55,630 nt of DNA. Source: Chitinophagaceae bacterium. Its GTDB lineage: Bacteria; Bacteroidota; Bacteroidia; Chitinophagales; Chitinophagaceae. Every line of letters begins with the position of its first letter. Positions within the stretch are counted from its first letter, which is position 1. Shown one piece after another: positions 12,848 through 51,905 of this stretch. The notes beneath the pieces are model-generated. The model saw only the letters and a program-made list of their open reading frames with translations, ran no database searches and was not told the DNA's origin. Position numbers and translations under genes: made by a program. Location of the stretch: assembly GCA_947447825.1 (NCBI GenBank), contig CANFLL010000014.1, positions 1 to 55,630 of the forward strand. Reading direction: 5' to 3'.

Positions 12848-13127
12848 ACAATCGGAGTGTCAGCGAAATCAATTGAACATATCCCCAATATAATTGGAAA
12901 CTATCCTTAATACAGTCTGATTGTCAACGGAATCAATCAGAGTGTATCCTTAATACAATCGGATTGTCAGCGGAATCAATCGAAACGTATTCCCAATACA
13001 ATCAGAGTGTATCCTTAATACAATCGGATTGTCAACGAAATCAATCGGAGTGTATCCTTAATACATTCGGAGTGTATTCCTAATACAATCGGATTGTCAA
13101 CGGAATCAATCGGAGTGTATTGTGGGA
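12848..13127. repeat. Array B: CAATCGGATTG-type words at 21-22 bp, 65-bp higher order
   Basis: The odd dyad ACAATC-G-GATTGT occurs exactly at 12955-12967, 13020-13032 and 13085-13097, giving a 65-bp higher-order period. Degenerate starts lie at 12848 and 12912. Within a unit the related word CAATCGGAGTGTAT recurs every 21-22 bp (for example 13021, 13042, 13064, 13086), separated by TCCTTAAT-like linkers. No open frame runs through it. It starts 160 bp after the SGNH-like gene and ends before the SAM riboswitch. Confidence 0.9.
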
Positions 13128-13354
13128 TAGATTTAAGTTTTCAATCAAACAATCATGAAATAAAAAAAGTCACCCAGAAAATATCCTGAGAAATTACTAA
13201 TGACACTAGCGCATTGAGACTGATAAATACATTGATAGGGATTATATTGTTAGTAAATTCAATTTGGGTGTGCATGAATGAATTTGTTAGTGGTGGTAAT
13301 TTCAATTTGGCAGATTACCCCATCTACCTTTACATTTGCACCAGTTCTTTAAAT

Positions 13355-13468
13355 TACTTATCAAGAAAGGCAGAGGGAATTGGCCCTGTGAAGCCTTGGC
13401 AACCCAAACAAGTGACCGCGCTTGTTTAGAAGGTGCCAACTCCACTCCCGAATGGGAAGAGATAAGTC
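13355..13468 (+). promoter_or_regulatory. SAM-I (S-box) riboswitch
   Basis: The conserved S-box elements occur in order: CTTATCAAGA at the 5' side of P1, GAGGGAATTGGCCC of P2, TGAAGCCTTGGCAACC, the variable P3 hairpin, AAGGTGCCAACTCC, a P4 hairpin (CTCCCGAATGGGAAG) and the closing GATAAG pairing with CTTATC. It binds S-adenosylmethionine and normally turns off methionine genes. The next gene on this strand is metX, the expected target. The start codon is almost 400 bp downstream, with a terminator between. Confidence 0.95.
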
Positions 13469-13521
13469 AGCGTTGGTTTTATTTTCAATGAATACTTCTA
13501 TAGTATTTTATATGTTATAAT

Positions 13522-13555
13522 AGCCCGTCTGATTTATTTCTGATGGGCTTTTTTA
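13522..13555 (+). terminator. Terminator between the SAM riboswitch and metX
   Basis: The stem AGCCCGTC / GATGGGCT, with one wobble pair and further pairing inside, is followed by TTTTTT. Its position 54 bp after the aptamer suits a transcription-attenuation platform, read when SAM is bound. An alternative anti-terminator pairing was not worked out. Confidence 0.8.
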
Positions 13556-13856
13556 TTGCCCCTTCTACCCAATTGTTAAGTATTAATTGCTTATTTTTTT
13601 TGTTGCTATATAGAAGATTTACCAACAAGTTCACAAGGAAAAAAAGAAAGTACACAATGGTTTTATTCCTATTGCAACTTCTTTTTTAATAATTGTTCTT
13701 CCTCCTTTGTGTTCTTTGGTAAACACTTCTTGTTCTGGGTGGTTAAAACATCCTAGAATAGTAACTATTGTTTAACTCTAACTTTTTTGTTCTTATTTTT
13801 TGTAGGAACAGACTCATAACATAGGCACTTATTGGCCGATTGTTATTGCACTAAAT
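13556..13856. other. Long metX leader with an inverted repeat
   Basis: There is no gene. An imperfect inverted repeat pairs 13618-13638 (TTTACCAACAAGTTCACAAGG) with 13704-13723 (CCTTTGTGTTCTTTGGTAAA), spanning 106 bp, with some further symmetry outside the arms. It may be a small MITE-like or structural element. No promoter is evident. Confidence 0.45.
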
Positions 13857-14891
13857 ATGTCTAAGATTTATAAACATCAGGGAGTATTTGTATTGGAAAG
13901 TGGGAAGCGTCTCTCTAACCTTCATTTGGCTTATAGTACATCGGGGGTGCTGAATGAGCAAAAAGATAATGTGGTTTGGATTTTTCATGCACTTACCGGA
14001 AATGATAAACCAAGAGAATGGTGGCCAGGACTTGTGGGTGAAGGTTGCTTATTGAATACGGATGAATATTTTATTGTTTGCGTGAATGCACCTGGGAGTT
14101 GCTATGGTAGCATTAATCCTCTGGATACTAATAGAGAAACAGGCGAACCTTTTTATCATGACTTTCCGCTGTTTACAACAAGGGACATGATTAAAGCCTA
14201 TCAACTTCTGAAAAGAGAGTTGGGCATTGATAGGATTAAAATAGGCGTTGGGGGATCGATGGGTGGACAACAACTATTGGAATGGGCAATAGATGAACCC
14301 TCGATATTTGAATACATAATTCCGATTGCTACTAATGCCAAACATTCATCGTGGGGAATTGCTTTTAATGCCTCGCAGAGAATGTGCATTGAACATGACA
14401 TTACCTGGAAGGAAAAACACCCTGAAGCAGGAATGGAAGGCATGAAAACGGCTAGAAGTATTGCTTTGATTAGCTACAGAAACCATGACACCTACAATGA
14501 AATGCAACAAGGGGTTACTTCCGAAACAAAACATTTACCCGTTGACCAGCAAGTGTTTAAGGTGGAAACTTACCAGAAATATCAGGGAGAAAAACTTGCC
14601 AAACGCTTTAATGCTTTTAGCTATTACTTTTTGAGTAGAGGCATGGACTGTCATAATGTGGGACGTAACAGAGAATCTGTGGAGGCAGCGTTACGATCTA
14701 TTGAGGCAAAGACGCTGGTTATTGGCATATCAAGCGATATTCTTTTTCCTACACATGAACAAGAGTTTATTGCTCAACATATTCCAGATGCTAAATGTGT
14801 TATCATTGAATCATTGTATGGGCATGATGGTTTTCTGCTTGAATTTGCCCAAATAGAAAATGAAATAAGAAAGTTTTTGGTTAATGATTAA
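13857..14891 (+). CDS. metX: Homoserine O-acetyltransferase
   Basis: This 344-residue alpha/beta-hydrolase-fold acyltransferase shows the MetX signatures NVVWIFHALTGND, the nucleophile elbow GGSMGGQQ (Ser134), and the acid and base of the triad at Asp294 (ISSDILFPT) and His323 (YGHDGFLLE). It transfers the acetyl group of acetyl-CoA to homoserine, the first committed step of methionine synthesis. The upstream SAM-I riboswitch supports this assignment over a serine acetyltransferase paralogue. It converges with the YciI gene, with a strong hairpin between them. Confidence 0.95.
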   Translation: MSKIYKHQGVFVLESGKRLSNLHLAYSTSGVLNEQKDNVVWIFHALTGNDKPREWWPGLVGEGCLLNTDEYFIVCVNAPGSCYGSINPLDTNRETGEPFYHDFPLFTTRDMIKAYQLLKRELGIDRIKIGVGGSMGGQQLLEWAIDEPSIFEYIIPIATNAKHSSWGIAFNASQRMCIEHDITWKEKHPEAGMEGMKTARSIALISYRNHDTYNEMQQGVTSETKHLPVDQQVFKVETYQKYQGEKLAKRFNAFSYYFLSRGMDCHNVGRNRESVEAALRSIEAKTLVIGISSDILFPTHEQEFIAQHIPDAKCVIIESLYGHDGFLLEFAQIENEIRKFLVND

Positions 14892-14940
14892 TGTTTAATG
14901 ATGAAGGATTAATTACTTCTCATTAAACATTAATCATTAA
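14881..14940. terminator. 21-bp perfect inverted repeat between metX and the YciI gene
   Basis: The arms at 14881-14901 and 14920-14940 are perfect reverse complements around an 18-nt loop and overlap the metX stop. They lie between convergent genes and probably act as a bidirectional terminator. Confidence 0.75.
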
Positions 14941-14943
14941 AAA

Positions 14944-15243
14944 CTAATCAACATTTTCTGCATCGAGGGCATCAAAAGCTTTAACTTTTTTAGTTGCTTT
15001 AAACTGAATGACTCTACAATCTGCCAAGTTCAAAATAACGAAGGGGTCTTGGGAAATAATGGCATTAATTTCCTCTATACTATCAGCCTTGGCAAAAATA
15101 ATTCCTCCATCACGTGGTTCTTTTCTGCCAGAAGCCAAAAAATTGCCTGCATGATAGTACTTATCTACATATTTCATGTGTGCAGCCATGTTTGCATCAA
15201 TTTGATCTGTTGGTACTTTGTAAGTAAGCTCAATGATATACAT
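14944..15243 (-). CDS. YciI family protein
   Basis: This small protein of 99 residues has the YCII (dimeric alpha+beta barrel) pattern: N-terminal YIIELTYKV, the AAHMKYVDKYYHAGNFLASGRK helix region with a conserved His and Asp, GGIIFAKADS, and DPFVILNLADCRVIQF. The His/Asp pair is the proposed active site of the family, but no general reaction is established, so function is left open. It converges with metX. Confidence 0.88.
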   Translation of the reverse strand: MYIIELTYKVPTDQIDANMAAHMKYVDKYYHAGNFLASGRKEPRDGGIIFAKADSIEEINAIISQDPFVILNLADCRVIQFKATKKVKAFDALDAENVD

Positions 15244-15477
15244 TTTACATAAATTTTAAAGATGAAGGCTTCAAAAGTAAAGCAAGAAGAACAACGAATA
15301 TAACTGATTGTTGTCAGGAATATTATCCAATCCCCCTACATTTACAAATCACTGATAAAGCTACACATCATAGAAAAAGATATAAACGCTATAGGGCTGC
15401 TGGCAATTGCCAATGAAGCTAGCAACGACCATTTTAAAACATTTCTTAAAACAAAAGAAGCCCATTCCATTGATGCA

Positions 15478-15864
15478 ATGGTGTTTGAGCTGAATGAAAC
15501 AATTACCCCACAAATAGATTGTACCTCGTGTGGAAACTGCTGCAAAAGCTTACTTATTAATGTGACAGAAACTGAGGCAGATGCACTTTCTCTACACTTA
15601 AATCAGACGAGAAAAGACTTTGACAATCAATATTTAGAAAAAAGTGGGAATATGATGCTGATGAATGCAATACCGTGTACTTTTTTAAGAAATGATATTT
15701 GTACTGTTTATGAAAATCGTTTTGCTGGCTGTAGGGAATTTCCAGCAATGCACCTGCCAGATTTTAATAAACGCCTATTTACTACTTTTATGCACTACAA
15801 CCGTTGTTTGATTATTTATAATATTGTAGAGGAGCTAAAAGTAATGACAGGGTTTAAGAGATAA
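15478..15864 (+). CDS. YkgJ family cysteine-cluster protein, start uncertain
   Basis: The visible protein (128 residues from the first ATG) contains the family pattern CTSCGNCCK, then CTFLRNDICTVYENRFAGCREFP, and a final Cys in NRCLI. These cysteines are thought to bind zinc or an Fe-S cluster; the role is unknown. The same frame stays open upstream to a stop at 15301 and encodes plausible family sequence (LLAIANEASNDHFKTFLK). The true N-terminus is therefore probably 40 or more residues earlier, yet that stretch has no ATG, GTG or TTG. Either the start is unusual (ATT at 15340, or ATA/CTG) or a base error hides it. Confidence 0.82.
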   Translation: MVFELNETITPQIDCTSCGNCCKSLLINVTETEADALSLHLNQTRKDFDNQYLEKSGNMMLMNAIPCTFLRNDICTVYENRFAGCREFPAMHLPDFNKRLFTTFMHYNRCLIIYNIVEELKVMTGFKR

Positions 15865-15926
15865 AGTGTAATAAGTTGAAGAATTAAGCTAGAATTAATG
15901 AGTTGGTGGTGTACTAATAATGATAT

Positions 15927-15967
15927 AAACATTAAAGGCATACTACATGTGGATGCCTTTAATGTTT
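15927..15967. terminator. Hairpin between convergent genes
   Basis: A perfect 15-bp stem (AAACATTAAAGGCAT with its complement) encloses an 11-nt loop, followed by GTTTG. It lies between the YkgJ gene and the reverse-strand epimerase gene. Confidence 0.75.
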
Positions 15968-16039
15968 GTTTGCTATTTTGTTAGAAATTAATATAAAATC
16001 TGCCTAGCAAAATCTACTTCTTTTTTAGGTATTCTACAA

Positions 16040-17155
16040 TTAGCCTTCAAGTATATCGAATATTCTTTGCGAAGATTTGCCATCTCCATACGGGTTTATT
16101 TTATGGGTCATTTGAGCATAAACTTCTTTGTCATTAAAAAGTTTGCTAAGATAATCAAGTATCAATTCCTTGTTATCGTGAACCAAAACACCAGCACCAG
16201 CATCAATTACTTCCTGCCTTTCGGTAGTGTCTCGTAAAATCAAAATTGGTTTATTGCAAGTAATAGCCTCTTCTTGAATTCCACCACTATCAGTAAACAC
16301 AATGTAGGAATGGTACATCAGGAATACTAACTTGTCATAAGCTAAAGGATTCAAAAGACAAACACCTTTACAATTGCCCAACTCTTTTTTAATGAAATCG
16401 CCATTACGGTTAGGATGAATTGGCAAAACAAATTGAGCCTCGCTTTCTTGTTCCACAAAAGCACGAATACTGTCACAGATATTTTGCAATGGTTGCCCAA
16501 AATTTTCCCTTCTATGTATGGTTGTAAGGATTATCTTTTTCTTTAAATCAACTCCTTTACTTTCAAAATACTTAGCATAATTGGCTTGATTGGTTTCTGT
16601 TATTTCGATGGTATCTATTAAAGAATCAATAACCGTATTGCCAACAATGTGTACCCCATTTAAGATTTTTTCATCATAAAGATTTTGACAAGAAAGACTC
16701 GTTGGGCAAAAATGATAATTGGCAATATGGGTTATCATTTTCCTGTTTCCTTCTTCAGGAAAGGGCGATTCTAGGTCACCACTTCTTAATCCGGCTTCAA
16801 TATGTGCTACTTTTATATTATTATAAAAGCCATATAAAGCTCCCGCAAATGCTGTTGTTGTGTCTCCTTGAACAAAAATAATACTTGGTTTAAACTCCTC
16901 TCCTAGCTTGTGCAATCCTTCCATTATATGATTAAAAGAAGAAACTAGCGTTTGGTTTGGTTTCATTGCAGACAAGTCTACATCATATTTAAAAGAAAAC
17001 AGTTCAAATAAATCATGCAATAATTCCTTGTGCTGCGAGGTTATGCACACCTTTACGTTATGCTTTTCACTAGCCCTGAAAACTTTAATAACAGGGTTCA
17101 TTTTAATTAGCTCAGGTCTTGTACCTAAGATAAAGAGTACTTCTTTTTTACGCAT
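16040..17155 (-). CDS. wecB: UDP-N-acetylglucosamine 2-epimerase (non-hydrolysing)
   Basis: The protein has 371 residues from the chosen start MRKKEVLFILGTRPE, 1 bp after the stop of the upstream gene; an ATG eight codons earlier would overlap that gene. Family signatures are GTRPELIKMNPVI, HIEAGLRSGDLESPFPEEGNR, TIHRRENFG and the UDP-binding DSGGIQEEA. It interconverts UDP-GlcNAc and UDP-ManNAc in the cytoplasm. It is the last gene of a three-gene reverse-strand unit with a membrane glycosyltransferase, so it probably supplies UDP-ManNAc or a derivative for a surface glycan. Confidence 0.94.
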   Translation of the reverse strand: MRKKEVLFILGTRPELIKMNPVIKVFRASEKHNVKVCITSQHKELLHDLFELFSFKYDVDLSAMKPNQTLVSSFNHIMEGLHKLGEEFKPSIIFVQGDTTTAFAGALYGFYNNIKVAHIEAGLRSGDLESPFPEEGNRKMITHIANYHFCPTSLSCQNLYDEKILNGVHIVGNTVIDSLIDTIEITETNQANYAKYFESKGVDLKKKIILTTIHRRENFGQPLQNICDSIRAFVEQESEAQFVLPIHPNRNGDFIKKELGNCKGVCLLNPLAYDKLVFLMYHSYIVFTDSGGIQEEAITCNKPILILRDTTERQEVIDAGAGVLVHDNKELILDYLSKLFNDKEVYAQMTHKINPYGDGKSSQRIFDILEG

Positions 17156-17156
17156 T

Positions 17157-18560
17157 TTAATCTTTTTTAGCAAGTCCATGTTCGGTTTTACTCCAAGCCA
17201 TATTAGGTTTAGTGATTAGCTGATATAAAGCCCGATAACAGGATATAGTGAGTAGAAGGTTTGAAAACAATAGAAAAAAGGGGGAAAGCAACGCATCTTT
17301 ATAACGGCGATACTTGAGGGATGACGCTGCAAAAATGAGCATACTAATGATTGAACCAGAAATCATTAATCCATAAAACCCAATTACAGAAATCCAATAG
17401 GGGAAGAAAGCATTAAAAAGTTTATCTTGAAAAATAATCCAGAGAATGGTAAGCAGAAAAAACATTGGGGAAACAAGGCCAATAACTGAACCTAGCGTCC
17501 AGAAGTTGAACGATAGCCAACGACCAAAACCAATCTGTTTACATGTCTTAACAATGTTCCTGTTCAACACACAAGTAGAAATAATAAACCCTTTTACCCA
17601 GCGTGTTCTTTGGTTTAACAGTTGAGCCAGTTTTACAGGAGCTTCTCCTTTAGTAATGCTTGGCAAATGCCCAATGCGCCCACCGTGACTGTAAACAGAT
17701 GAACTAAAGATGAGATCTTCTGTTGGATTGAACATATCAAAGTACTGAATCTTGTCCATCATTTCCTTCTTTACATAAAAAGAAGTACCCCCCAAAGGAA
17801 GGTATAAGCCCCTATTATTTGCCTTTTTAGTTGTTCTATCAATGCCATTCAAAAGGAATTCAAAAAAGCACCTGAACTCCGAGGAGAAAAAACGAGTTAT
17901 AAAGTTTTGATTAGAGTTGTAAATACCAATGCTACACTGAATAACATCTAAGTCATTGTTTTCAAAGTGATATGCCACTTTTAAAAACTGGTCAACATCT
18001 GGTTCATCTTCACTATCAAAAATTACAGTGATGTCGTTTTCACAGACCTTTAAACCGCAATTTAAAGCCCTCGATTTTGATTGAACTTCACCTTGCCTAA
18101 CAGGATGTATTTTAAGCAATTCCACAAAAGAAGGCATTACTAAGTCCTTAATTTCACTTAAAGTAGTAGTGTCATCCTCCTGAATAATTAAATAGGCTTT
18201 AATTAACTCTTTTGGGTAATTAATCTTATTAATGTTTGCAAGCAAGTCCTTAATTGTCTCCCCTTTTTCTCTGTAATTCGCCAGTAATATATTGAATGAA
18301 GGGTATTTTTTTAGTTCATGATAAGGAACCTCTTTATCCTTTTTGTAGGAGATAAGAAACAAATACCCTTTGTAATAAGTAATTATTAAAAAGAATAATT
18401 GACAAGTTAGGATAAACATCACCAAAACGTATACTGGCTTTGTGAAAACAGCTATTAGCAATGCAATTACAATGTAACCCCAAAAAGCATGACGAAGGTT
18501 ACCGAAGTTCTTCCAAAACTCAAAAGAACCTTTATCTACACTAGAAGACTTTTCTACCAT
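17157..18560 (-). CDS. Membrane-bound family 2 glycosyltransferase
   Basis: The protein has 467 residues. Two membrane segments near 28-70 precede the GT-A domain, and three or four segments lie in the C-terminal ~120 residues. Visible motifs are FNILLANYREKGETIKDLL, the donor/metal region FDSEDEPD, TEDLIFSS (the catalytic ED), and QRTRW, the processive-type Q-x-x-R-W motif. It probably polymerises or transfers sugars on the inner face of the membrane and may export the product. It overlaps the small outer-membrane gene upstream by 7 bp and abuts the epimerase, so UDP-ManNAc is a plausible donor. Substrate specificity is inferred only from the neighbour. Confidence 0.88.
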   Translation of the reverse strand: MVEKSSSVDKGSFEFWKNFGNLRHAFWGYIVIALLIAVFTKPVYVLVMFILTCQLFFLIITYYKGYLFLISYKKDKEVPYHELKKYPSFNILLANYREKGETIKDLLANINKINYPKELIKAYLIIQEDDTTTLSEIKDLVMPSFVELLKIHPVRQGEVQSKSRALNCGLKVCENDITVIFDSEDEPDVDQFLKVAYHFENNDLDVIQCSIGIYNSNQNFITRFFSSEFRCFFEFLLNGIDRTTKKANNRGLYLPLGGTSFYVKKEMMDKIQYFDMFNPTEDLIFSSSVYSHGGRIGHLPSITKGEAPVKLAQLLNQRTRWVKGFIISTCVLNRNIVKTCKQIGFGRWLSFNFWTLGSVIGLVSPMFFLLTILWIIFQDKLFNAFFPYWISVIGFYGLMISGSIISMLIFAASSLKYRRYKDALLSPFFLLFSNLLLTISCYRALYQLITKPNMAWSKTEHGLAKKD

Positions 18561-18985
18561 GCAAAAGTTTTTTCAACTTTTAGTTGTATGTAGTTTTGGG
18601 TTATGTTGCTTTCAATATTATCGTTATGGCGCAATCCTAGCCCCATTACAAACTTTGGTTGCACTTTGAAATTCATAAAAACTTGTGCATTAAAGTAGTT
18701 GTTAATTTGAGAACTAACTATTTTATCATCCTTATAATACTCTGCATAGGTGCTAGCATATAGGCGATCTGTGATGGCAAATTGGTTAAAGTTGTAGAAT
18801 ACAAAGCTTTTATCAGTACTATTAATACTTTTCCCTACTTGCGAACCCAGCGTAATGGCATTATATCTACTATAATCATTTGAGGTATGCAAGAAATAAG
18901 ATTGATATGTTTTATCAATGTTTTGTGCATACAAGGATAGAGCCATGAGGAATGTAGAACATCCCACTAAGAGTGTTTTTTTCAT
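18554..18985 (-). CDS. Small exported, probably outer-membrane protein
   Basis: The protein has 143 residues. A signal peptide ends near LSLYAQ, and short alternating beta-type stretches follow up to a terminal aromatic (KVEKTFAW), the usual end of an outer-membrane barrel. The length allows only a small barrel, or it is the remnant of a longer one. I do not recognise a family with confidence; the C-terminal part recalls YaiO-like barrels. It overlaps the glycosyltransferase gene by 7 bp and is the first gene of the unit, so it could help a glycan pass the outer membrane. Confidence 0.65.
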   Translation of the reverse strand: MKKTLLVGCSTFLMALSLYAQNIDKTYQSYFLHTSNDYSRYNAITLGSQVGKSINSTDKSFVFYNFNQFAITDRLYASTYAEYYKDDKIVSSQINNYFNAQVFMNFKVQPKFVMGLGLRHNDNIESNITQNYIQLKVEKTFAW

Positions 18986-19447
18986 GTTAAATTCAAGGTT
19001 TAATTTAAAGTTAGGTTGGTAAACTTTGGCAACAAATAAGCAATAATATTTTAATGTTTATGAGTGTAAATAGCTTTATAAGTGTTGTGTGTTAGTCATA
19101 CATTTATAAATTTTTTGCAATAATAATAGAAAATACAATCCAATGATTATTTATTAAAAAACAAATTAAAGTGTTTACAAAAAAAATACTAAACAATCTA
19201 AGTACTTAAACACAATCAGTAAATAAATGAAATCAAACACAATGGACTTTAGCGTATACAATAGACATGATACGGCTAAAACAAAACTCACATGGCAATC
19301 TTGAAACTTAATACTATTAAAAAACGCTATGAAGCTCTATCTAGAAGCTGCTGCTAGTGTAAATACTATTCAAAATATTTCCTCCCTATTAACCTTAAAT
19401 GATTAGAAACAAACGTTTACTTTCATATAACTATAAATAAATAGCAT
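18986..19447. other. Intergenic region without recognisable gene
   Basis: This is AT-rich DNA upstream of the reverse-strand glycan unit and downstream of the reverse-strand permease. Apart from poly-A/T runs I see no repeat array, RNA motif or convincing ORF. The promoter of the glycan unit should be near its right edge of the gene (about 19000-19100), but no clear element is visible. Confidence 0.5.
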
Positions 19448-19480
19448 AAAAAAAGCTACCCATTTCTGAGTAGCTTTTTT
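19448..19480 (-). terminator. Terminator of the amino acid permease gene
   Basis: The stem GCTAC/GTAGC extended by A/T pairs (AAAAAAGCTAC with GTAGCTTTTTT) encloses a loop of about 10 nt. On the reverse strand it ends in a T-run, 36 bp after the permease stop. Confidence 0.85.
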
Positions 19481-19515
19481 AATAATTAATATAAAAATGA
19501 AATAGTATTTAACTA

Positions 19516-20988: not shown

Positions 20989-21134
20989 AATTTCCTAGTT
21001 AAACTCCTTTAATAATAATATATTAGGGTAGCAAAATAAACATTTATTGGTGTACTATTACATTTGATTTAAAATTAGCATTATAATAAGTATATATTTA
21101 TTATTCTAAACTGTAAATAATTTAATTTTTAATT
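20989..21134. promoter_or_regulatory. Divergent promoter region, permease and symporter
   Basis: 146 bp of very AT-rich DNA separate the two divergent transporter genes, so both promoters should lie here. I cannot single out a -7/-33 pair or an operator with confidence. Confidence 0.4.
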
Positions 21135-22370: not shown

Positions 22371-22393
22371 TTATTAATTGATAATTATCCAGT

Positions 22394-22582
22394 TCGTTCA
22401 GCTATACGAACATGCCGTAAGGGCTTACCAGACTTCCGTAAAGCTGAACGAACTTTGCGTAAAGGTTAACGGAACTTCCGCTCAACTGAACATTTCTTCC
22501 GGAAGGGCTTACGGAACTTCCGTCCAACTGAACTTTTCTTCCGTAAGGGCTTACGGAGCTTCCGTTAAACTGAACAATTGAC
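22394..22582. repeat. Array C: nine 21-bp units of two alternating types
   Basis: Units start at 22394 and then every 21 bp to 22562. Types alternate strictly, B A B A B A B A B. Type A is CCGTAAGGGCTTACGG plus AACTT, with a 16-bp dyad (arms CCGTAAG / CTTACGG). Type B resembles CCGTCCAACTGAAC plus a T-rich tail and contains a GTTCA-nn-TGAAC-like dyad. The frame happens to stay open through the array, but it has no initiation signal and lacks the look of a protein gene. The rest of the gap to 22711 is AT-rich and featureless. Confidence 0.93.
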
Positions 22583-22711
22583 TAATAAATACCACTTCTA
22601 ATTTTGATTGGCTACTGAATTAATGAAACCTTCATCTTCATTACTTATGATTATATTAAAATTTAATGTTTCTTTACAGCCGAAGTAATTAACCACCTTC
22701 ACATTAAGTTT

Positions 22712-23395: not shown

Positions 23396-23398
23396 TTT

Positions 23399-34432: not shown

Positions 34433-34741
34433 TAGATGATATTTTTTTTATTGGGCAGTTGTAATTAATAAGTTACAACCAAAGCACTATTTTATGCAAG
34501 TTGCCATCTTTAATTTATATGCGTCATCAATATTTTAACGTAATTCAATTTCAACTAATTCTACTTTGACAGTTTAAAATAATCGTTATCCATCAGGAGT
34601 TCTACCCCTAAATTTATGTGTAAAAGTGTTAAACTTTTAAGCGCCCTTCCAACTCTCAAAAAGTTCTAAACTTTCTAGAAGTTTATCCCAAACACGCAGA
34701 ATATCAAAATGAGTACATTCTTTTGTCCTCTTTCTTCCAAT

Positions 34742-34881
34742 TATTCAACTGAGTCACGCTTAAATTCACTTGAGTCAGTCCACGACTCACCTGAGTCAGC
34801 CAAAGATTCACCTGAGTGAGTCTACGACTCACTTGAGTCAGACAAGGACTCAGTTGAGTCGTGGACTGACTCAGGTGAGTA
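34742..34881. repeat. Array D: seven 14-bp GACTCA-nn-TGAGTC dyads at exactly 21 bp
   Basis: Dyads start at 34742, 34763, 34784, 34805, 34826, 34847 and 34868, each followed by a 7-bp variable spacer. The central dinucleotide varies (AC, CT, CC, GT, GG). The first half is degenerate in the outer units, the second half (TGAGTC) almost constant. Segments 34772-34797 and 34847-34872 are also inverted repeats of each other over 26 bp with one mismatch. Stop codons occur in the only heptad-like frame, so it is not coding. Confidence 0.94.
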
Positions 34882-35639
34882 AATGACGTTTTCTGTTGCT
34901 AAAATTGCTAAATTAAATGATGTAATCATTGATAGCAAAGGGTTTTAAGGAGTTTATAGATTATACTCAACAGAATTTGGTTTGCGAAATAAGAGAAGCT
35001 TCATTCAATTGAAATCAAGGCAATTAATCATTCCTTTCGGCAAAAGCAATTTTCTGAAGTGTGACCAACCTCAATATTTTATTCTTACAATACATGGGTT
35101 TACTTTTTGGCCTAAAGTTTTTGATAAAAAACGAATGCTTAACTTCAAAATGTTACACACACAAAATGAAATCTAAAGTGTCAAAGTAGAACTAACTATT
35201 TACTAGAAATTGAAATCCTTTTTTTGAATTCCCCAAAAATATCGAAACCCTTACAGGATTATATTTTCTCCCACATGAGTATTACACTTAAATGATACTT
35301 AACATTTAATTTACCTATTTCTTGAATGAGAACGATTGCAATTACAAAGAATGCAAATTGGGTAGTTTTTCATATAATTATTATTTTTCTAATGCACATT
35401 TAATACTTAGATGTTTATATGTTTGCGAGATAAATGGTGTATTTAAAGCAACAAATTGAAGGATATGTCGATTATTTTTCGATACACTCCTACAATTTTA
35501 TGTTGTTGTACTAAATAAAAAGATATGTAACAGTATATCTTCCCTTTGGTGAAATACTAATGCACTATTTTCTTGTCAAGAGATACACTACATTTTTTTA
35601 TTGACGCAAATTATTCTTACTCAAATTAAATAAAATAAG
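34882..35639. other. Gene-free AT-rich region
   Basis: I see no supported gene between array D and the SDR gene. One open frame near 34982-35176 starts at TTG, has biased composition and no recognisable domain. No RNA motif or strong hairpin stands out. Confidence 0.5.
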
Positions 35640-41395: not shown

Positions 41396-41418
41396 TTAAT
41401 AGATAAATTATAAAAGTA

Positions 41419-41456
41419 AAAAATGCTGTTTCATTAGTTTGAAACAGCATTTTTTG
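41419..41456 (+). terminator. Terminator after rpoC
   Basis: A perfect 14-bp stem (AAAAATGCTGTTTC with its complement) and an 8-nt loop are followed by a T-run, 23 bp after the stop. Confidence 0.92.
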
Positions 41457-41556
41457 TTTTATCTAGATTTCTAAATCTATGGCTCAATTTTATACAGCCA
41501 ATTTTAACCAGACATACATACCACTCAGCTTTTTCTAGTGTTTATTTCTCCAAATT

Positions 41557-41753
41557 AACAGACCCCGAAGCAAAATTGGTATACCAATTTTCAGAAACGG
41601 TACACCATTTCCCATTTTTGGTATACCATTTTTCTTTAGTGGTATACCATTTTCTAAAAAGGGTATACCATTTCTCCAAATTAATAGACCCCGAAGCTAA
41701 AATGGTATACCAATTCTCAAAAATGGTATACCATTTTCCATTTATGGTACGCT
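41557..41753. repeat. Array E: ten GGTATACC units at exactly 21 bp, with 126-bp duplication
   Basis: GGTATACC or a variant occurs at 41557 (AACAGACC), 41578, 41599 (GGTACACC), 41620, 41641, 41662, 41683 (AATAGACC), 41704, 41725 and 41746 (GGTACGCT), each exactly 21 bp apart. The best units extend to AAATGGTATACCATTT. The first four units recur 126 bp (six units) later, including the odd stretch GACCCCGAAGC, so blocks have been duplicated. A frame stays open and reads as heptads of the VYHFxxx type, but it has no start signal and fits shadow translation. The rest of the gap to 42037 is AT-rich. Confidence 0.94.
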
Positions 41754-42004: not shown

Positions 42005-42013
42005 TACTTTCGC
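42005..42013 (+). promoter_or_regulatory. TACTTTCGC -7-like element before the TonB receptor
   Basis: It is the same 9-mer as before the porin-like gene at 53034, about 25 bp before the start codon here. No clear -33 element was found. Confidence 0.4.
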
Positions 42014-42037
42014 ACTTCATCAAACAAAAAATAATAA

Positions 42038-45328: not shown

Positions 45329-45353
45329 TTAATATACAAACAAACACAATATG

Positions 45354-45379
45354 CGGCTTCCTTTTGGGAAGCCGTTTTT
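45354..45379 (+). terminator. Terminator after the TonB receptor gene
   Basis: A perfect stem CGGCTTCC / GGAAGCCG with loop TTTTG is followed by TTTTTG. Confidence 0.92.
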
Positions 45380-45455
45380 GTTTCTGGTTTATAGGATCTA
45401 AACCAATTACTTTGAAAATTCGATTTCGTTTCAGTAGCTGATGGAAATAGATTCA

Positions 45456-46133
45456 TTAGCCCAAATGCTTCATTGCCTCTCGCTTGCTTAATGAATGTAG
45501 TGGATGATTAGCCAAAAAATCTATCACCCAATCACGGTCTACTTTGGCATATTCTCTCAATGCCCACCCAATAGCTTTTCTAACAAAAAACTCTTTACTG
45601 TCGGCTACTCTCAAAATGTGTTTAGCCAAAAGTGTTTTATCGGTTTTCTTTTTATATGCTTTCTGAAAGATGATACTACTTCGCTGAAGCCAAAAATTAT
45701 CACTGTTGTTCCAGGTAGTTGTAAGTTTAACTTCATTGGGAAATAATTGAAAATATTTTCCTACACAGGCTATGTTCAGGTTATCTACCGAATCCCACCA
45801 GCTTTGATTTTTTAAGCAATATTCAATCAATTCAATAGTTTCTCTATTCCAAAGTTTATGATAATAGGCTAATACATCAATTCCTGCATGATGATATTCT
45901 CTTTCTTCCTTCTGCCATAGAATTTTAACAACCTCTGAAATCTTATTAATGTCCATTAATGGATACAGTTTAATAACATCCTTGGTTATTTCCCTTCTTT
46001 CGGCTGTTACTAAGCCAATAAAAGGGAAATGATGCTTCATGTATGCCTTGTTTTTTTCTGCTCGGTCATGATTAGCTTTAGCTTCAAAAAAAGCTTTCAA
46101 GGTTTCAACCAACAGTAACTCATTATCTGCCAT
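45456..46133 (-). CDS. DNA alkylation repair (AlkD-like HEAT-repeat) protein
   Basis: The protein has 225 residues from MADNELLLVETLKAFF. The frame is open 24 codons further, but those codons come from a repeat element, so the later ATG is preferred. It is all-helical with HEAT-like repeats and the AlkD-type pattern: AYMKHHFPFIGL, DVLAYYHKLW, NQSWWDSVDNL (Trp and Asp of the base-excision site), WLQRSSIIFQ and EFFVRKAIGWALREYAK. AlkD-type glycosylases remove bulky or positively charged alkylated bases. Placement rests on these motifs; activity is inferred. Confidence 0.9.
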   Translation of the reverse strand: MADNELLLVETLKAFFEAKANHDRAEKNKAYMKHHFPFIGLVTAERREITKDVIKLYPLMDINKISEVVKILWQKEEREYHHAGIDVLAYYHKLWNRETIELIEYCLKNQSWWDSVDNLNIACVGKYFQLFPNEVKLTTTWNNSDNFWLQRSSIIFQKAYKKKTDKTLLAKHILRVADSKEFFVRKAIGWALREYAKVDRDWVIDFLANHPLHSLSKREAMKHLG

Positions 46134-46146
46134 ATTGAATAATTTT

Positions 46147-46317
46147 TTGTAACTATTCAGGGGATATTTAACCACAAAGGGCACTAATGCTTTCACCAAG
46201 GACACAAGGATTGTGTTGTATTATTTCTTCAGAACTACCATTGGGAGACTCTAAACCTTAGTGTATTTAGTTTTTTCCTAGTGTATTTCGTGGTAAATAA
46301 CCGCTGAAGAGTTACAA
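46147..46317. repeat. MITE-like element with long terminal inverted repeats
   Basis: The left end (46147-46175, TTGTAACTATTCAGGGG then ATATTTAACCAC) and the right end (46290-46317) are inverted repeats over about 28 bp with only a few mismatches and one indel. The similarity continues inward (ACCACAAAGGGCACTAA against ACCACGAAATACACTAG). The element is about 171 bp, has no ORF of its own, and lies between T-runs that could hide a short target duplication. It resembles a miniature inverted-repeat element or a large structural repeat. Confidence 0.6.
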
Positions 46318-46379
46318 TTTTTTTTGGAAATAAATTTCTTCCAGATTGATAATACGTTCAACTTATTAACAACAACTTA

Positions 46380-46787
46380 TCATAGATTTCTTAAATATTC
46401 TTGCAGCAACATCGTTGCAGCCACTTGGTCAATATTGCCTTTCACTTGTCTATCTTTCTTTTTCATACCCATTTCCACCATAGCAAGTGATGCTAATTTT
46501 GAAGAATATCTTTCATCAATAGTTTTTATGGGGATGGTAGGAAAGTTTTTTTCTAATTGTTTAATGGCTGCCAAAACAAGCGGAGTGCCATGTGTGGGGG
46601 TATCGTCCAGATTGAGAGGCATTCCTATCAATATTAGTTCAACAGATTCTTTAGCAATGTATTGTTTCAAAAAGGAAATTAAATCTTTACTTTCAATAGT
46701 GGTCAAAGCTGTCGCAATAATCTTTAACGGATCTGTCACTGCAATCCCAGTTCTTTTTCCACCATAATCAATGCATAATATTCTCAT
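46380..46787 (-). CDS. ruvX: Holliday junction resolvase-like protein RuvX
   Basis: The protein has 135 residues from MRILCIDYGGKRTGIAVTDP; a GTG three codons earlier is possible. It has the RNase H-like YqgF fold with the catalytic Asp in CIDYGGKRTG, GMPLNLDD, the TIDERYSSKLA motif with Asp-Glu, and IDQVAATMLLQ with the final Asp. It is thought to process 16S rRNA precursors or resolve recombination junctions. It lies on the reverse strand, with the MITE-like element and the AlkD-like gene downstream. Confidence 0.94.
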   Translation of the reverse strand: MRILCIDYGGKRTGIAVTDPLKIIATALTTIESKDLISFLKQYIAKESVELILIGMPLNLDDTPTHGTPLVLAAIKQLEKNFPTIPIKTIDERYSSKLASLAMVEMGMKKKDRQVKGNIDQVAATMLLQEYLRNL

Positions 46788-46886
46788 AAATAACACTTAT
46801 TTTTTAATTTAAATTTAGCAGTTTAAACATTGTTAGGTACCGTAATAATTTTACAAGAATATATAAAATCAATAAAAAACTAATCT

Positions 46887-47600
46887 TTACGATACTATCG
46901 TGACCGCATTTTCTTCTAAAGGAGGCAGATTAATAAATTTTAAAATTATGCTTGCTGTTAGTATTACATCTCTTTCGCAATAGTCTGCTATGCGTCGTAA
47001 GTTTTTGTCAATATAATACACATCTTGCACCATACTACCATCAATATCTGTTTTAGAAGTTGGCAATGCTAACACATTTGCCAATAAGTGCAGCGAAATA
47101 TAGTTTTTATAATCACCAAATTTCCAAAAATTCAAGGTGTCAAACATTTTTACTTCCCAAGGTTTTTTTTCATGAATAGATAAATATTCAGGTAATGAGA
47201 TGCCATTAATAACCATGCGTCTGCATAAATAAGGGATATCAAACTCCTTTATGTTATGACCTGCAAATTGAAAATGTGGATTGCGTGAATGAACTTTGTT
47301 ACAAAGCATTATAAATGATTGTAATAATTCCTTTTCATCATTATTATAAAGGCTCTTAACCTTTAAAGCAGTTCTTTTATTGGTATCATCATAGTAAAAT
47401 GCCGTAGAGATACATACGATTTTACCAAATTCAGCTAATATTCCTGCCTTTTTTTTATAACTTTCATAAGGAGAAGTGTTTTCTGGCACGGTTTTAGAAA
47501 TTTTATCAATCCAGAGTGTTTGCCAGATGGTAGGTAATAAATCAAAGTTCTCATACTGTGGAACAGTTTCTATATCTAACAGCAGCAAATCATTAAGCAT
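46887..47600 (-). CDS. DEDD-type 3'-5' exonuclease (PolB-exonuclease-like)
   Basis: This 237-residue ribonuclease H-like protein has motif I DIETVPQ (Asp9, Glu11), motif II FAGHNIKEFDIPYLCRR with the second Asp, and motif III NLRRIADYCERDVILT with the Tyr/Asp pair, as in predicted exonucleases related to the proofreading domain of B-family polymerases. It has no polymerase domain. It probably trims single-stranded DNA or RNA ends, and the exact role is unknown. It is divergent from the coiled-coil gene, 36 bp away. Confidence 0.9.
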   Translation of the reverse strand: MLNDLLLLDIETVPQYENFDLLPTIWQTLWIDKISKTVPENTSPYESYKKKAGILAEFGKIVCISTAFYYDDTNKRTALKVKSLYNNDEKELLQSFIMLCNKVHSRNPHFQFAGHNIKEFDIPYLCRRMVINGISLPEYLSIHEKKPWEVKMFDTLNFWKFGDYKNYISLHLLANVLALPTSKTDIDGSMVQDVYYIDKNLRRIADYCERDVILTASIILKFINLPPLEENAVTIVS

Positions 47601-47636
47601 ATAAATTCTTTTTTATAACGTTTAAAATAAATAAAC

Positions 47637-48605
47637 ATGGACACTTCAACTAATGGAGAACAAACTCCCCCTAAAGACACCCGTAAATTATGGTACGGTA
47701 TTCTAACAGTTTTATTAATTGGTACTTGGGTTTACATCATTGTAGATAAAAGTAAGACTAAAGAAACTATCACACAAAAGGATACACAAATATTAACGGT
47801 AAGTTCCGAAAAAGATTCTATTCAATTGGCATTTAATAATGCAAGCTTGAAATTAGATTCTCTTCAAACAAGTAATACAAAATTTCAAGGTGTTCTTGCT
47901 GAACAAAATGATAAAATATCTACTTTAAAAAATGAAATTGGCAAAATACTAACAAATAAGAATGCTACAAGTGAAGAATTGAAGCAAGCTAAAGCTATGA
48001 TTGCGGAATTGAATGGTAAGATTGATGGATACTCTGCTGAAATTGAAAAGCTTAAGGGGGAAAACAAAGTATTAACCACTACAAATGCACAACTTAGCAG
48101 CCAAAAAGATAGTTTGAATGCAGAAAAGTCAACTTTACAAAAAACACTTTCTACAACGGAAGCTGCTAAGAAAAATGTAGAAGATTTGGCATCTACACTT
48201 CATGCTTCAAACATTGCTATTTTAGCTATTGACAAAAAAAGTGGGGGAAAAGAAGTTCAGACCACTACTGCAAAACGTGCTGATTTGTTGCGTTTTACCT
48301 TTGATTTAGACGAAAATATGATTTCGCCTAGTGGTAACAAGGAGATTTATATTTGTGTAAATGGACCAGATGGCAAACCAATGACTAACGGCGTAACCTT
48401 CAATACTAGAGATTCTGGTGCAAAAGCATATACAAGTAAAGTGGATGTTCCTTACGAACAAGGCAAACGCACTCCGGTAAATGTAGATTGGAAAAAAGAT
48501 GGAGGGAAATATCCTATAGGTGATTACAAGATCACTATTTACCATAATGGCTTTAAGATTGGCGAAGGTGTGAAGTCATTAAAAAAAGGTGGTTGGTTTA
48601 GTTAA
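47637..48605 (+). CDS. Membrane-anchored coiled-coil protein of unknown function
   Basis: The protein has 322 residues. A short cytoplasmic N-terminus leads to one membrane helix (about 18-36, LWYGILTVLLIGTWVYIIV), a long coiled coil from about 45 to 185, and a C-terminal globular domain of about 120 residues. That domain contains LRFTFDLDENM, GNKEIYICVNGPDGKP and GDYKITIYHNGFKIGEG, a beta-rich pattern seen in conserved Bacteroidota proteins without known function. The topology places the coiled coil in the periplasm. I assign no function. Confidence 0.82.
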   Translation: MDTSTNGEQTPPKDTRKLWYGILTVLLIGTWVYIIVDKSKTKETITQKDTQILTVSSEKDSIQLAFNNASLKLDSLQTSNTKFQGVLAEQNDKISTLKNEIGKILTNKNATSEELKQAKAMIAELNGKIDGYSAEIEKLKGENKVLTTTNAQLSSQKDSLNAEKSTLQKTLSTTEAAKKNVEDLASTLHASNIAILAIDKKSGGKEVQTTTAKRADLLRFTFDLDENMISPSGNKEIYICVNGPDGKPMTNGVTFNTRDSGAKAYTSKVDVPYEQGKRTPVNVDWKKDGGKYPIGDYKITIYHNGFKIGEGVKSLKKGGWFS

Positions 48606-48633
48606 TATTATAACATTTTAGCTAAATATGCCT

Positions 48634-48678
48634 AAAATACAAATGCCGTTTCAACTTTTGAAACGGCATTTGTATTTT
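48634..48678. terminator. Bidirectional terminator, coiled-coil gene and mreD
   Basis: A perfect 21-bp stem with core ATGCCGTTTCAA and a 3-nt loop is flanked by A- and T-rich runs on both sides, between convergent genes. Confidence 0.92.
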
Positions 48679-48831
48679 ATTATGTTTATTCATTCTAAAA
48701 AGTACTTACTTCCACTTATATTCCAAAATAAAAAACAATCACATGCCAAATTTATTTTACTAAACTACTGATAATAATTTGAACGAAACTGATGAACTGT
48801 TCAATATTTTTTTACCACTAATAATTAATCC

Positions 48832-49365
48832 TCATCCAGCATTTGTTCTAAAAGACCCTTTTCTGAACATCAACATCTCCGCAATCGCCATTAAAAACAA
48901 ACTAACAACTGTGGAAGCAAGAACTTTTCCCAACAAATAAAGAATGTCTCCAAATTGCAACCACTCAATTATCACTAAATATAAATGATGAATAAAAGTT
49001 AGTAGCGCAAGATATAAAGCGTATAATGCAAACCCCATGCTTTTAATACTTGGTTCAGTATAACTAATTTCATTGCTTTCTTGCCTTATGATAAGGTTTA
49101 ATAGAAATGGACGGATGTAAGCAATTAAAACACATGGAGCTGCATGCAAACCAAGAGTTCCAGTGAAGTAATCAATTGTTAGTCCAAAAACGAAAGCAAT
49201 AGCTAATAGTAAAAGCCTATTTGTATTGAACGGCAACCAAAGAATATAAATTAAATACAAATAAGGGACAACAAATTGATGTAGTGGCGGCACACGATTC
49301 AAAATGAATACTTGAATAAGTATAAACAATATAAATCGGAATATATTTTTTAGTATACTATTCAT
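48832..49365 (-). CDS. mreD: Rod shape-determining protein MreD
   Basis: This 177-residue protein has five membrane segments (VPYLYLIYILWLPF, LLLAIAFVFGLTIDYFTGTLGLHAAP). The GLxxDxxxGxxGxHA pattern is typical of MreD. It acts with MreB and MreC in the elongation complex for lateral wall synthesis. It overlaps mreC by 8 bp. The usual next genes, a class B PBP and rodA, do not follow; the reverse-strand unit ends here. Confidence 0.88.
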   Translation of the reverse strand: MNSILKNIFRFILFILIQVFILNRVPPLHQFVVPYLYLIYILWLPFNTNRLLLLAIAFVFGLTIDYFTGTLGLHAAPCVLIAYIRPFLLNLIIRQESNEISYTEPSIKSMGFALYALYLALLTFIHHLYLVIIEWLQFGDILYLLGKVLASTVVSLFLMAIAEMLMFRKGSFRTNAG

Positions 49366-50212
49366 TTGTCTTTTGTTCTTTTGATTCTAATTCCTTTTGC
49401 TCTTCGTAGCGAACATTTTTCACAAGATATACATATTGCAAACTGGCAAAATTGGTTGATACTTTAACCTTTAAAGTATAAAAATTACTAGAAGGGTCAG
49501 CTGTTTTACCAGCAATTGTACCAATCATTATGCTCGATGGAAAATTGGCGGAATAGTTACTAGTAACAACAGTGTCGCCAATGTTTACTTTTACCCCTTT
49601 TCCGATGTTTTTAAGTGTAACAAAGTACGGGTTTTCACCACTCCATTCAACGCTTCCTGCACTATTATCCTTTTTCAGCATAGCACTAACCTTAGTACTT
49701 CTATTTAGTAAACTCATCACAATTGAGTAATTGTCACTCACATGTAGCACTACACCAACAATACCTTGTGGACCAATAACACTCATTCCTGTTTTAACAC
49801 CCTGCAATGCACCTCTTTCAAGAGTAAGAAAATTGTTTTGAAGCGTAATAGAGTTACTAACAACATTTGCAGGTAAGTAGGTATATTTTCTATATCTACC
49901 AGAGGTGTCAGCCAGAGTAGTGTCTATGAAGCTCTTCTGAGTACTGTCTGGTGTAATTAAATTAGATTTCAGTTGGTAACGTAACTTACTGTTCTCTTCA
50001 GATAATTGTTTATTAATTTCTTTCAAGCTAAAATAGTATGTAAAGTCGCTGTATCCTTTATTTACTGTGCCAATTGCTTCATTATCATAGAATGAAAAAA
50101 ATGCTTCATGGGTTTTGCTACTTCTACTAAGCATCATAATACAGGTAATCTGCAATGCAATAAAGCAGATAAAAGTAAAATAGGTGCGTATGAAAAGTAT
50201 AATATTCTTCAT
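49358..50212 (-). CDS. mreC: Rod shape-determining protein MreC
   Basis: The protein has 284 residues: an N-terminal membrane helix (about 5-28), a coiled coil (LKEINKQLSEENSKLRYQL), and the two beta-barrel subdomains of MreC with NFLTLERGALQGVKTGM, GPQGIVGVVLHVSDNYS and GDTVVTSNYSANFPSSIMIG. It is a periplasmic scaffold linking MreB/MreD to wall synthases. It lies 77 bp downstream of mreB and overlaps mreD. Confidence 0.95.
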   Translation of the reverse strand: MKNIILFIRTYFTFICFIALQITCIMMLSRSSKTHEAFFSFYDNEAIGTVNKGYSDFTYYFSLKEINKQLSEENSKLRYQLKSNLITPDSTQKSFIDTTLADTSGRYRKYTYLPANVVSNSITLQNNFLTLERGALQGVKTGMSVIGPQGIVGVVLHVSDNYSIVMSLLNRSTKVSAMLKKDNSAGSVEWSGENPYFVTLKNIGKGVKVNIGDTVVTSNYSANFPSSIMIGTIAGKTADPSSNFYTLKVKVSTNFASLQYVYLVKNVRYEEQKELESKEQKTNE

Positions 50213-50289
50213 GTAATCTGAAAAAAATAAAGCCTAAATCTTAAGGAGTAAATTTAAGCTTTAGACTTATTAAGTGTATAATTTAGAAA

Positions 50290-51315
50290 TTATTTCATAA
50301 TAAAAGGGTATCGTTGATAGTTTTTAAGTCCTAATCCAGTACCTCTAACAACGCTCTTCAAAGGATCGTCGGCTATATGAACAGGTAATTTAATTTTTGC
50401 AGCTAATCTTTTATCCAATCCTCTTAGCAGGGCACCTCCACCTGTCAGGTATAGTCCTCGTTTATAAATATCGGATGCTAATTCTGGTGGAGTTGCTTCA
50501 AGCGCTTTTAAAATTGCTTCTTCAATTTTAAAAATGCTTTTATCCAATGCTTCAGCAATCTCTTGATAGCTTACCATGATTTGTTTAGGAATACCAGTCA
50601 CCAAATCTCTTCCATTAACTGGAATATCATCTGGAGGGCTATCCAAATCCTTCATTGCAGCACCCACCAATATTTTAATTTGTTCAGCAGTACGTTCTCC
50701 AATTAATAAGCTATGATAGCGTCTTAAAGATTCCATAATGTCCGCAGTAAACTCATCGCCCGCAATACGAATACTCTGATCGCACACAATACCTGCCAAT
50801 GCAATAACCGTAATGCCTGTTGTACCACCTCCAATGTCAATAATCATGTTTCCAACAGGTTCTTCAACATCAATACCAATTCCCAGAGCCGCAGCCATTG
50901 GTTCATGAATCATATATACTTCTTTTGCACCTGCTTGTTCTGCACTATCCCTAACGGCACGTTTTTCAACTTCAGTAATAGAAGATGGAATGCAAATAAG
51001 CATTCTCCAGCTTGGTGGGAATAAAGGTTTCTTAGGGTAAACAAGTTTAATAAGCTCACGAATCATTAATTCCGCAGCATTAAAGTCTGCAATAACCCCA
51101 TCTTTCAAAGGGCGAACTGTTCTGATACTTTCATGCGTTTTTTCGTGCATTAGTAATGCTCGCTTTCCTACAGCTAAAACTTCTTTAGGATTATTGCGGT
51201 TTAGGGCAATAATAGAGGGTTCGTTAACTACTATTTCGTCGTTGTGAATTATGAGTGTATTAGCGGTACCGAGGTCAATCGCTATTTCTTGGGTAAAAAA
51301 ATTGAATAATGCCAT
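50290..51315 (-). CDS. mreB: Rod shape-determining actin homologue MreB
   Basis: This 341-residue actin-fold ATPase has the phosphate-1 motif AIDLGTANTLI, VCIPSSITEVEKRAV, HEPMAAALGIGIDV, the phosphate-2 motif IDIGGGTTGITVIAL and the adenosine motif LTGGGALLRGL. It forms membrane-associated filaments that guide wall elongation. It is the first gene of mreBCD. Its promoter must lie in the 680-bp region shared with cmk, which contains array F. Confidence 0.97.
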   Translation of the reverse strand: MALFNFFTQEIAIDLGTANTLIIHNDEIVVNEPSIIALNRNNPKEVLAVGKRALLMHEKTHESIRTVRPLKDGVIADFNAAELMIRELIKLVYPKKPLFPPSWRMLICIPSSITEVEKRAVRDSAEQAGAKEVYMIHEPMAAALGIGIDVEEPVGNMIIDIGGGTTGITVIALAGIVCDQSIRIAGDEFTADIMESLRRYHSLLIGERTAEQIKILVGAAMKDLDSPPDDIPVNGRDLVTGIPKQIMVSYQEIAEALDKSIFKIEEAILKALEATPPELASDIYKRGLYLTGGGALLRGLDKRLAAKIKLPVHIADDPLKSVVRGTGLGLKNYQRYPFIMK

Positions 51316-51678
51316 TATAAATTAGATAACTTTAAATCCTGCAAAAATTGTGGGCTGCAAAAGTGGAAGAAAAAATGGAATATCCATCCATTAATTTTTT
51401 AATTGGTACAAATAAACGCAAATTCTCACAAATAACAAGATTCTTACTAAATACAGGTAGTTAAAGAAGCATCCTGCATCATGAAATTAGTTACTTCTCA
51501 GAAGCTTTGGCAGTTAGTTTATGAAGAAAAAACAAATGACACAAAGGTTTAGTGTTGGCTTTAAAACTACGCTTGAATACTTTTACATTACATATCATCA
51601 GAACTATCAAAGAGTACTTCTTCCATAAGTCAAAATATGTATTAGAAGTTTAAAATTTATATTGGCTATACCCAGTTC
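51316..51678. other. Divergent mreB/cmk intergenic region, left part
   Basis: No gene is seen. It must hold the mreB promoter. No repeat array or RNA motif was found before array F begins. Confidence 0.5.
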
Positions 51679-51905
51679 TCTCATAATTAACAAAACCCAA
51701 CAAGAACAGGAATAATCTGGGAGAGATTGGTACTACTCTTTACCAGAATCACCAAAACCTGACAAGATTAGGGGCAAACTGGAAGAGATTGGTTCTACTT
51801 TTTACCAGAATCACCAAAACTTGACAAGATTAGGGGCAATCTGGGAGAGATTGCCCCTAATCTTTACCAGAAACATCAAAAACTGATAAGAATAGAGAAC
51901 CATCA
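51679..51905. repeat. Array F: four units at 62 bp, with a 16-bp stem
   Basis: CAAAAC-type words recur at 51691, 51753, 51815 and 51877; TACCAG at 51741, 51803 and 51865; and AGAGATTG at 51722, 51784 and 51846. All are 62 bp apart, close to three times 21. The third unit contains a perfect inverted repeat with 16-bp arms at 51827-51842 and 51848-51863 (AGATTAGGGGCAATCT) around GGGAG. The period is not a multiple of three, so it is not coding. Confidence 0.92.

Follow-up and report, generated by a model that had tools for sequence, protein, structure and literature searches.

Five tandem arrays lie in a 55,630-nt stretch of DNA (contig C14, hereafter the window) from a Chitinophagaceae genome (G000; 4.65 Mb in 187 contigs). 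The question they raise is why repeats that do not match one another in sequence should nevertheless recur at about the same spacing, ~21 bp, and what such spacing might serve. An initial annotation of the window had described the five as sharing this period, each with its own family of words and most with dyad-centred units; its observation largely held, and its interpretation was supported in part. Most arrays of this kind, though not all, proved to have phased dyads whose half-sites are separated by about one helical turn, and we give roughly even chances to the reading that the arrays are phased multi-operator sites for one or more putative dimeric DNA-binding proteins. The arrays, all outside the long open reading frames (ORFs) of the window, are as follows.

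12846 to 13127, no strand assigned: array A1, with a period of ~21.7 bp (22+21+22) and ACAATC-G-GATTGT dyads.
22393 to 22584, no strand assigned: array A2, with a 42-bp unit made of two 21-bp dyads, TTCCGTAAGG/GCTTACGGAA and CCGTTCAA/CTGAAC.
34737 to 34900, no strand assigned: array A3, with 21-bp units on TGAGTCA-type dyads, in the interior of an element resembling a miniature inverted-repeat transposable element (MITE).
41557 to 41753, no strand assigned: array A4, with 21-bp units centred on GGTATACC and variable linkers.
51717 to 51895, no strand assigned: array A5, with 2.9 copies of a 62-bp unit, in the divergent mreB-cmk intergenic region.

Autocorrelation was used to test the period of each array, with 300 dinucleotide shuffles of that array as the control; the shuffled maximum at lags 20-22 was 0.35-0.40 across the five. 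A1 reached 0.65, 0.56 and 0.49 at lags 65, 43 and 22 (mean period 21.7), A2 reached 0.73 and 0.46 at lags 42 and 21, A3 reached 0.71, 0.71 and 0.69 at lags 21, 42 and 63, and A4 reached 0.60, 0.60 and 0.59 at lags 63, 21 and 42. The peak of A5 was at lag 62 (0.76), its value at lag 21 was at the shuffle level (0.36 versus 0.37), and its 62-bp unit showed no significant three-fold dyad (p = 0.195). Tandem Repeats Finder agreed with the periods obtained by autocorrelation. A1-A4 carry a real period of 21-22 bp, and A5 is a real 62-bp array in which the proposed subdivision into three units of 20.7 bp was not demonstrable. The five showed no mutual match, as had been noted, but four of them are not unique to their locus: A3 belongs to a dispersed element, and A2, A4 and A5 each have relatives elsewhere in G000 (a family mate on contig C69 for A4, and for A5 a dispersed 62-bp repeat family with a mate at L287:38-394). 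No relative of A1 was seen in the sampled G000 DNA.

The scan of G000 covered 855 kb, made up of a first sample of 455,454 bases, window included, and a fresh held-out 400 kb. Arrays at least half covered by ORFs of 100 amino acids were excluded from the non-coding counts, a filter that mislabels some arrays as coding since periods of 21, 42 and 63 leave frames open. Periods at multiples of ~21 bp were found in 31 of the 45 non-coding arrays of the first sample (the 31 include L018:6546, of lag 21, which resembles a heptamer array of L023 and may belong to a 7-bp class) and in 21 of 24 held-out arrays. The remaining first-sample arrays had lags of 14 (ten arrays), 8 (three) and 34 (one), and the remaining held-out arrays were two with heptamers and one of lag 74. 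Altogether, 52 of 69 non-coding arrays had periods at multiples of 20.5-22 bp, in the series 21/42/63/84/105, 41/62/83/103 and 22/44/65/88, whereas a single mononucleotide shuffle in 500-bp blocks (793 kb) produced no arrays. The genome-wide excess at lag 21 that the initial annotation had proposed to look for is strongly positive on the 855 kb, and extrapolates to ~280 such arrays per genome.

These counts bear on a neutral explanation, in which the arrays are minisatellites without function, their palindromic units copied by slippage or unequal crossing-over and hairpin size favouring steps of ~21 bp. Slippage alone would give a broad range of periods, an outcome that the initial annotation had set against its own account, yet the majority of G000 arrays fell in one class. 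Coding repeats were rejected as a separate candidate: three does not divide the periods 41, 62, 65, 83, 85 and 88, and the 3-bp power in unit conservation was below the null (z = -2.6). Clustered regularly interspaced short palindromic repeats (CRISPR), repetitive extragenic palindromes (REP) and bacterial interspersed mosaic elements (BIME) are also intergenic repeats with dyads; the arrays here run head to tail at ~21 bp with no long unique spacers, and the distinction from CRISPR drawn earlier stands. Intergenic arrays of a second class, which have a 7/14-bp (heptamer) period, also occur in G000, at window positions 14881-14950, at L016:10655, L020:4747, L023:15 and L024:2955, and at other loci.

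Dyads were assessed by permutation tests in which repetitiveness was retained and the order within the unit was scrambled, using arrays with an exact 21-bp phase. Within the window, column permutation supported dyads in A2 (p = 0.005), A3 (p = 0.015) and A4 (p = 0.03), and those of A1 were recognised by eye. At p ≤ 0.05, dyads were found in 22 of 31 held-out arrays (~1.6 expected) and 21 of 35 first-set arrays; a first run had given 20 of 36 with a spurious lag-34 array (L014:7208) included, which was left out of later counts. The dyad-centred units reported in the initial annotation were in this way borne out well beyond the window.

In the dyad-positive arrays, conservation was highest 5-5.5 bp from the dyad (0.748 versus a null of 0.592 in the held-out set, and 0.859 versus 0.631 in the first set) and low at the dyad centre and the unit edge. 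In 19 of 23 held-out and 16 of 19 first-set arrays of this group, the ±5/5.5-bp positions exceeded the array mean. Such a peak is what a pair of half-sites separated by one helical turn would give. When dyads were ignored, unit conservation over 66 arrays had excess power at 21 and 10.5 bp only. Double changes at dyad pairs were more frequent than expected under independence (66 versus 44, 19 arrays), and 36 of the 66 pairs with both members off consensus were complementary.

One half-site family was traced by its motif. The pattern AATAAG-N6-CTTNTT-N3, phased at 21 bp, occurred in 5 of 13 genomes of the genus and 0 of 26 others, and its reversed control gave 0 in all 39 genomes. Twelve of its 13 loci contributed 90 units, in which the half-sites were near-invariant and the centres and linkers freer, an invariance that is partly by construction as the loci and 82 of the 90 units were selected by the pattern itself; the eight intervening non-matching units were off at one to three half-site positions. 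An array of this family is conserved between G000 (contig C5) and G004 (contig C29), yet its 2.2-kb flank is also 88% identical, so that no extra constraint was demonstrated there. A second motif, TTCCGT-N8-ACGGAA, was mildly informative, with 7, 7, 5 and 3 sites in G000, G003, G004 and G002 versus 0, 3, 2 and 0 for the reversed control.

Evidence of constraint came from A2, which lies between a sodium:dicarboxylate symporter gene and a VTT-domain gene and was found between the same two genes in four species (G000, G004, G003 and G002). The listed units, exactly 42 bp apart, number 4, 5, 6 and 5 respectively, the outermost being degenerate, and the alignment between species has one clean 42-bp gap. 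Between the four species, identity is 82-91% over the 16 inner units (the 4 outermost left out) and 74-82% over all 20 listed units, compared with 37-55% at fourfold sites of the adjacent symporter. The ±5.5 columns are the most conserved, with an average identity to the majority of 0.99 (17 of 20 units). A2 is conserved while synonymous sites have largely diverged, which argues that at least some arrays are not neutral debris; for the neutral explanation, both this identity and the focus of conservation at ±5/5.5 bp are difficulties. A2 was not seen in the other nine congeners.

Other loci gave a different picture. An array orthologous to A4 in G003 differs by one 21-bp whole-unit gap, so that gain or loss of whole units, which the initial annotation had suggested comparing between strains, was found at both arrays compared; G007, G009, G001, G006 and G010 have other sequence at the place of A4. 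A1 lies between a DUF1574-like gene (under the Pfam cut-off) and a gene led by an S-adenosylmethionine (SAM) riboswitch. Where this riboswitch and gene recur in G002, G003, G004, G006 and G010, A1 is absent upstream of them, and in G001 an AATAAG-type array stands there instead. By reading, the mreB-cmk gap of G003 and G004 has no repeat like A5 and measures ~310 bp rather than 679. With A1 and A5 absent in relatives, not all arrays can be under old constraint; some are old and constrained, and others are recent or lost. Unrelated arrays occupy matching places after the symporter in G010 and G006, upstream of mreB in G010 and upstream of the riboswitch in G001, a recurrence that may be chance at the array density seen.

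The neutral explanation gains from these comparisons as well, namely from the whole-unit gaps of 42 and 21 bp, from the missing A1 and A5, and from the lack of a clear indel depletion. The gap/mismatch ratio within arrays was 0.059 (190 gaps and 3241 mismatches in 82 arrays), and a neutral-like control, the flanks of the element around A3, gave 0.038-0.052 with free ends and 0.12-0.15 with forced ends. We regard a purely neutral account as unlikely; that the arrays arose neutrally and some were later put to use is quite possible.

Two side observations concern the neighbourhoods of these arrays. The SAM riboswitch (RF00162, 80.6 bits) is at 13355-13468 on the + strand, upstream of an alpha/beta-hydrolase gene that we take to be perhaps metX. 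Inside A5, at 51826-51864, is a perfect 17-nt inverted repeat with a 5-nt loop.

A3 differs from the other arrays in its setting, which is made up of the following features.

34556 to 35195, + strand: MITE-like element around A3, with 21-nt terminal inverted repeats and without an ORF of transposase size.
34556 to 34576, + strand: left terminal inverted repeat of the A3 element, the arms being 90% complementary.
35174 to 35194, + strand: right terminal inverted repeat of the A3 element.

For the inner 371 bp of the element, at least 40 matching places were found in G000, of which three match chiefly within the array (73 candidates, of which 40 were scored). Eighteen copies with aligned ends are ~580-740 bp long, with longest ORFs of 57-109 amino acids. 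The lag-21 span of the array is 3.3 to 10.5 units in 17 of them, and the 16.2 units of the eighteenth are probably a span artefact. The 13-nt core of the repeat was counted 33 times in G000 (control 1) and 0-3 times per congener (control 0-2). By eye, 4-bp repeats of CTAA, TTAG and TTAA type flank several of 13 element end pairs and are possible target duplications. Judged from its sequence, A3 is the interior of a dispersed MITE-like element carrying a 21-bp array. As described in parts of PMC4596501, the BrickBuilt MITE of Porphyromonas gingivalis is similar in having a minisatellite of about two turns, a leader and tail, inverted-repeat ends, intergenic location, multiple copies and no transposase. 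That element has 23-nt units and 19 copies, as opposed to 21-bp dyad units, at least 40 places and another inverted-repeat sequence here (PMC4596501).

A3 is exactly the case predicted if the arrays in general were minisatellites of MITE-like elements, as in BrickBuilt, mobilised by a transposase in trans, with flankless arrays as relics. Some families are also dispersed with non-homologous flanks (L007/L011, L012/L023 and A4/L024), and one family occupies four G000 loci. The likeness to BrickBuilt does not extend to A1, A2 and A4. The regions of A1, A2 and A5 had no flanks in common with other sampled sites, and no inverted pair cleanly brackets A1, A2, A4 or A5, the pairs falling inside the arrays (for A4, among 5 of 14 pairs listed); two further pairs at A1 (75-78%) do not cleanly bracket it either. 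A2 is fixed at one place in four species, and 55 of 82 sampled arrays were without a relative among the 82. We consider a general MITE origin quite unlikely. The 52 G000 arrays form 40 similarity families, 9 with more than one member. A separate dispersed repeat of ~170 bp, at window positions 46147-46315, has copies in L013, L014, L016, L018 and L022 and a partial one in L020, with matched pieces 79-92% identical.

Self-complementary units might also act in RNA, as 3'-end structures, attenuators or small RNAs; transcript 3'-end structure was among the roles first suggested. Folding of five arrays on both strands (138-144 nt each) beat shuffles in 9 of 10 stretches (z -3.0 to -10.4), the + strand of A2 being the exception (z -0.7), and the 52-nt satellites of Bacillus coagulans are transcribed, according to parts of PMC8161180 and PMC8625621. 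Self-complementary arrays of any kind, however, fold well on both strands. Mismatches on the strand read with genes gave no bias towards G-T (56, versus 63 A-C), and gene orientation at 31 arrays (the spurious L014:7208 included) resembled the background (16/9/6 versus 107/42/26 tandem/divergent/convergent). A4 lies upstream of an outer-membrane beta-barrel gene and, by eye, beyond a terminator-like hairpin. RNA and terminator roles fit worse than rows of dimer sites, and we hold them to be very unlikely. The hairpin, with its T run, was recognised by eye at 41416-41465, between A4 and its upstream gene.

The spread of the class was examined among relatives of G000, which comprise 12 congeneric genomes (G001-G012) and 11 genomes from other genera of the Chitinophagaceae (G013-G023). 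Non-coding class arrays were found in G004 (6), G006 (13, and in this genome one array of exactly 20 bp), G007 (1), G009 (1), G010 (4), G011 (4) and G012 (1). None appeared in the sampled stretches of G001, G002, G003, G005 and G008 (8 to 36 kb each); G001, G002 and G003 do carry class arrays at loci fetched for other reasons, and none was seen in the DNA examined from G005 and G008. Ten other genera, at 40 kb each (400 kb), gave no class arrays, where ~24 were expected at the density of G000. The window's symporter has its nearest named relatives, 90, 89 and 87% identical, in Chitinophagaceae metagenome assemblies. A survey of 80 named symporter loci (1.33 Mb) gave non-coding class arrays at L098, the locus of the 87%-identical symporter, and a weak 42-bp one in Filimonas zeae (L165, 0.56); L098 and G007 are probably the same genome, their symporter coordinates being equal. 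Further arrays of lag 21, 41 or 42 at L097, L128 and L139 are mostly under ORFs. The class is concentrated in this freshwater genus rather than proven absent elsewhere.

The initial annotation knew of no described system that fits, and this did not hold. Bacterial satellites of constant size and variable sequence, of 20-21-nt and 52-nt kinds, are described in the main text of Subirana and Messeguer, 2021 (PMC8161180), the former from many bacterial groups; nucleoid proteins or small RNAs were proposed for them, and the two-turn length was already remarked upon. The arrays resemble those satellites in being non-coding, 20-23 nt in unit and species- or group-specific, with several unrelated families per genome (PMC8161180), and we found all of these here, save for the weak Filimonas array as regards restricted presence. 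The array class itself is already known. Unlike that account, the present one concerns units centred on dyads, conservation of half-sites, constraint on an orthologous array and capture by a MITE-like element, in a genus of Chitinophagaceae; neither "palindrom" nor "Bacteroidetes" occurs in the main text of PMC8161180. The dyad and half-site architecture and the evidence of constraint are apparently new, with no counterpart found in the open-licence literature searched. A geometric likeness, and that alone, is offered by ArgR, which in the parts of PMC6640053 that treat it binds two ARG boxes, 18-bp imperfect palindromes 3 bp apart, on one helix face. Their centres are 21 bp apart, as in AATAAG-N6-CTTATT-N3, but ARG boxes form pairs rather than longer rows, belong to arginine genes and differ in sequence (PMC6640053).

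The constraint on A2, the dyads, the half-sites one turn apart and the two-turn repeat together agree with rows of dimer sites along a single helix face. In most arrays, each 21 bp would present an 18-20-bp gapped palindrome with half-sites one helical turn apart, and the two-turn repeat would set dimers side by side on one face, where they could bind cooperatively. The half-sites differ by array family, which would call for several related proteins or one that reads sequence loosely, both putative. We infer from this geometry that such a protein would bind and multimerise along the arrays, in local gene control, as a boundary or in nucleoid anchoring.

Several findings weigh against rows of dimer sites. 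No protein was identified for the arrays, and 52 arrays in 40 families amount to many specificities for one factor. Dyads fell short of significance in 9 of the 31 held-out arrays and in 14 of the 35 in the first set, and among dyad-negative arrays the ±5/5.5-bp positions exceeded the mean in 2 of 8 from the held-out set but in 12 of 16 from the first. Smooth blocks may account for part of the 10.5-bp harmonic of conservation (z = 4.7). The A2 flank beside the VTT gene is conserved as well, A1 and A5 are missing at matching places in relatives, and indels in arrays are not clearly rarer than in the neutral-like control. The period, the dyads, the half-site-like conservation, the constraint on A2 and the whole-unit differences at A2 and A4 are established.

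A broader proposal is tentative, and we think it rather unlikely as a whole. Hundreds of phased operator arrays might form a genus-wide system, read by dimeric proteins that diversify quickly and multimerise on a single face of the helix; it would be the bacterial equivalent of chromatin proteins that bind satellites. Arrays would be born, lost and captured by MITEs with the 21-bp geometry retained, and the same might apply to the 20-23-nt satellites of unrelated bacteria. Why some bacteria have numerous satellites that share a unit length but no sequence is a puzzle, and dyads whose half-sites are separated by one turn and recur at two-turn intervals would provide a physical and testable reason for that constant length.

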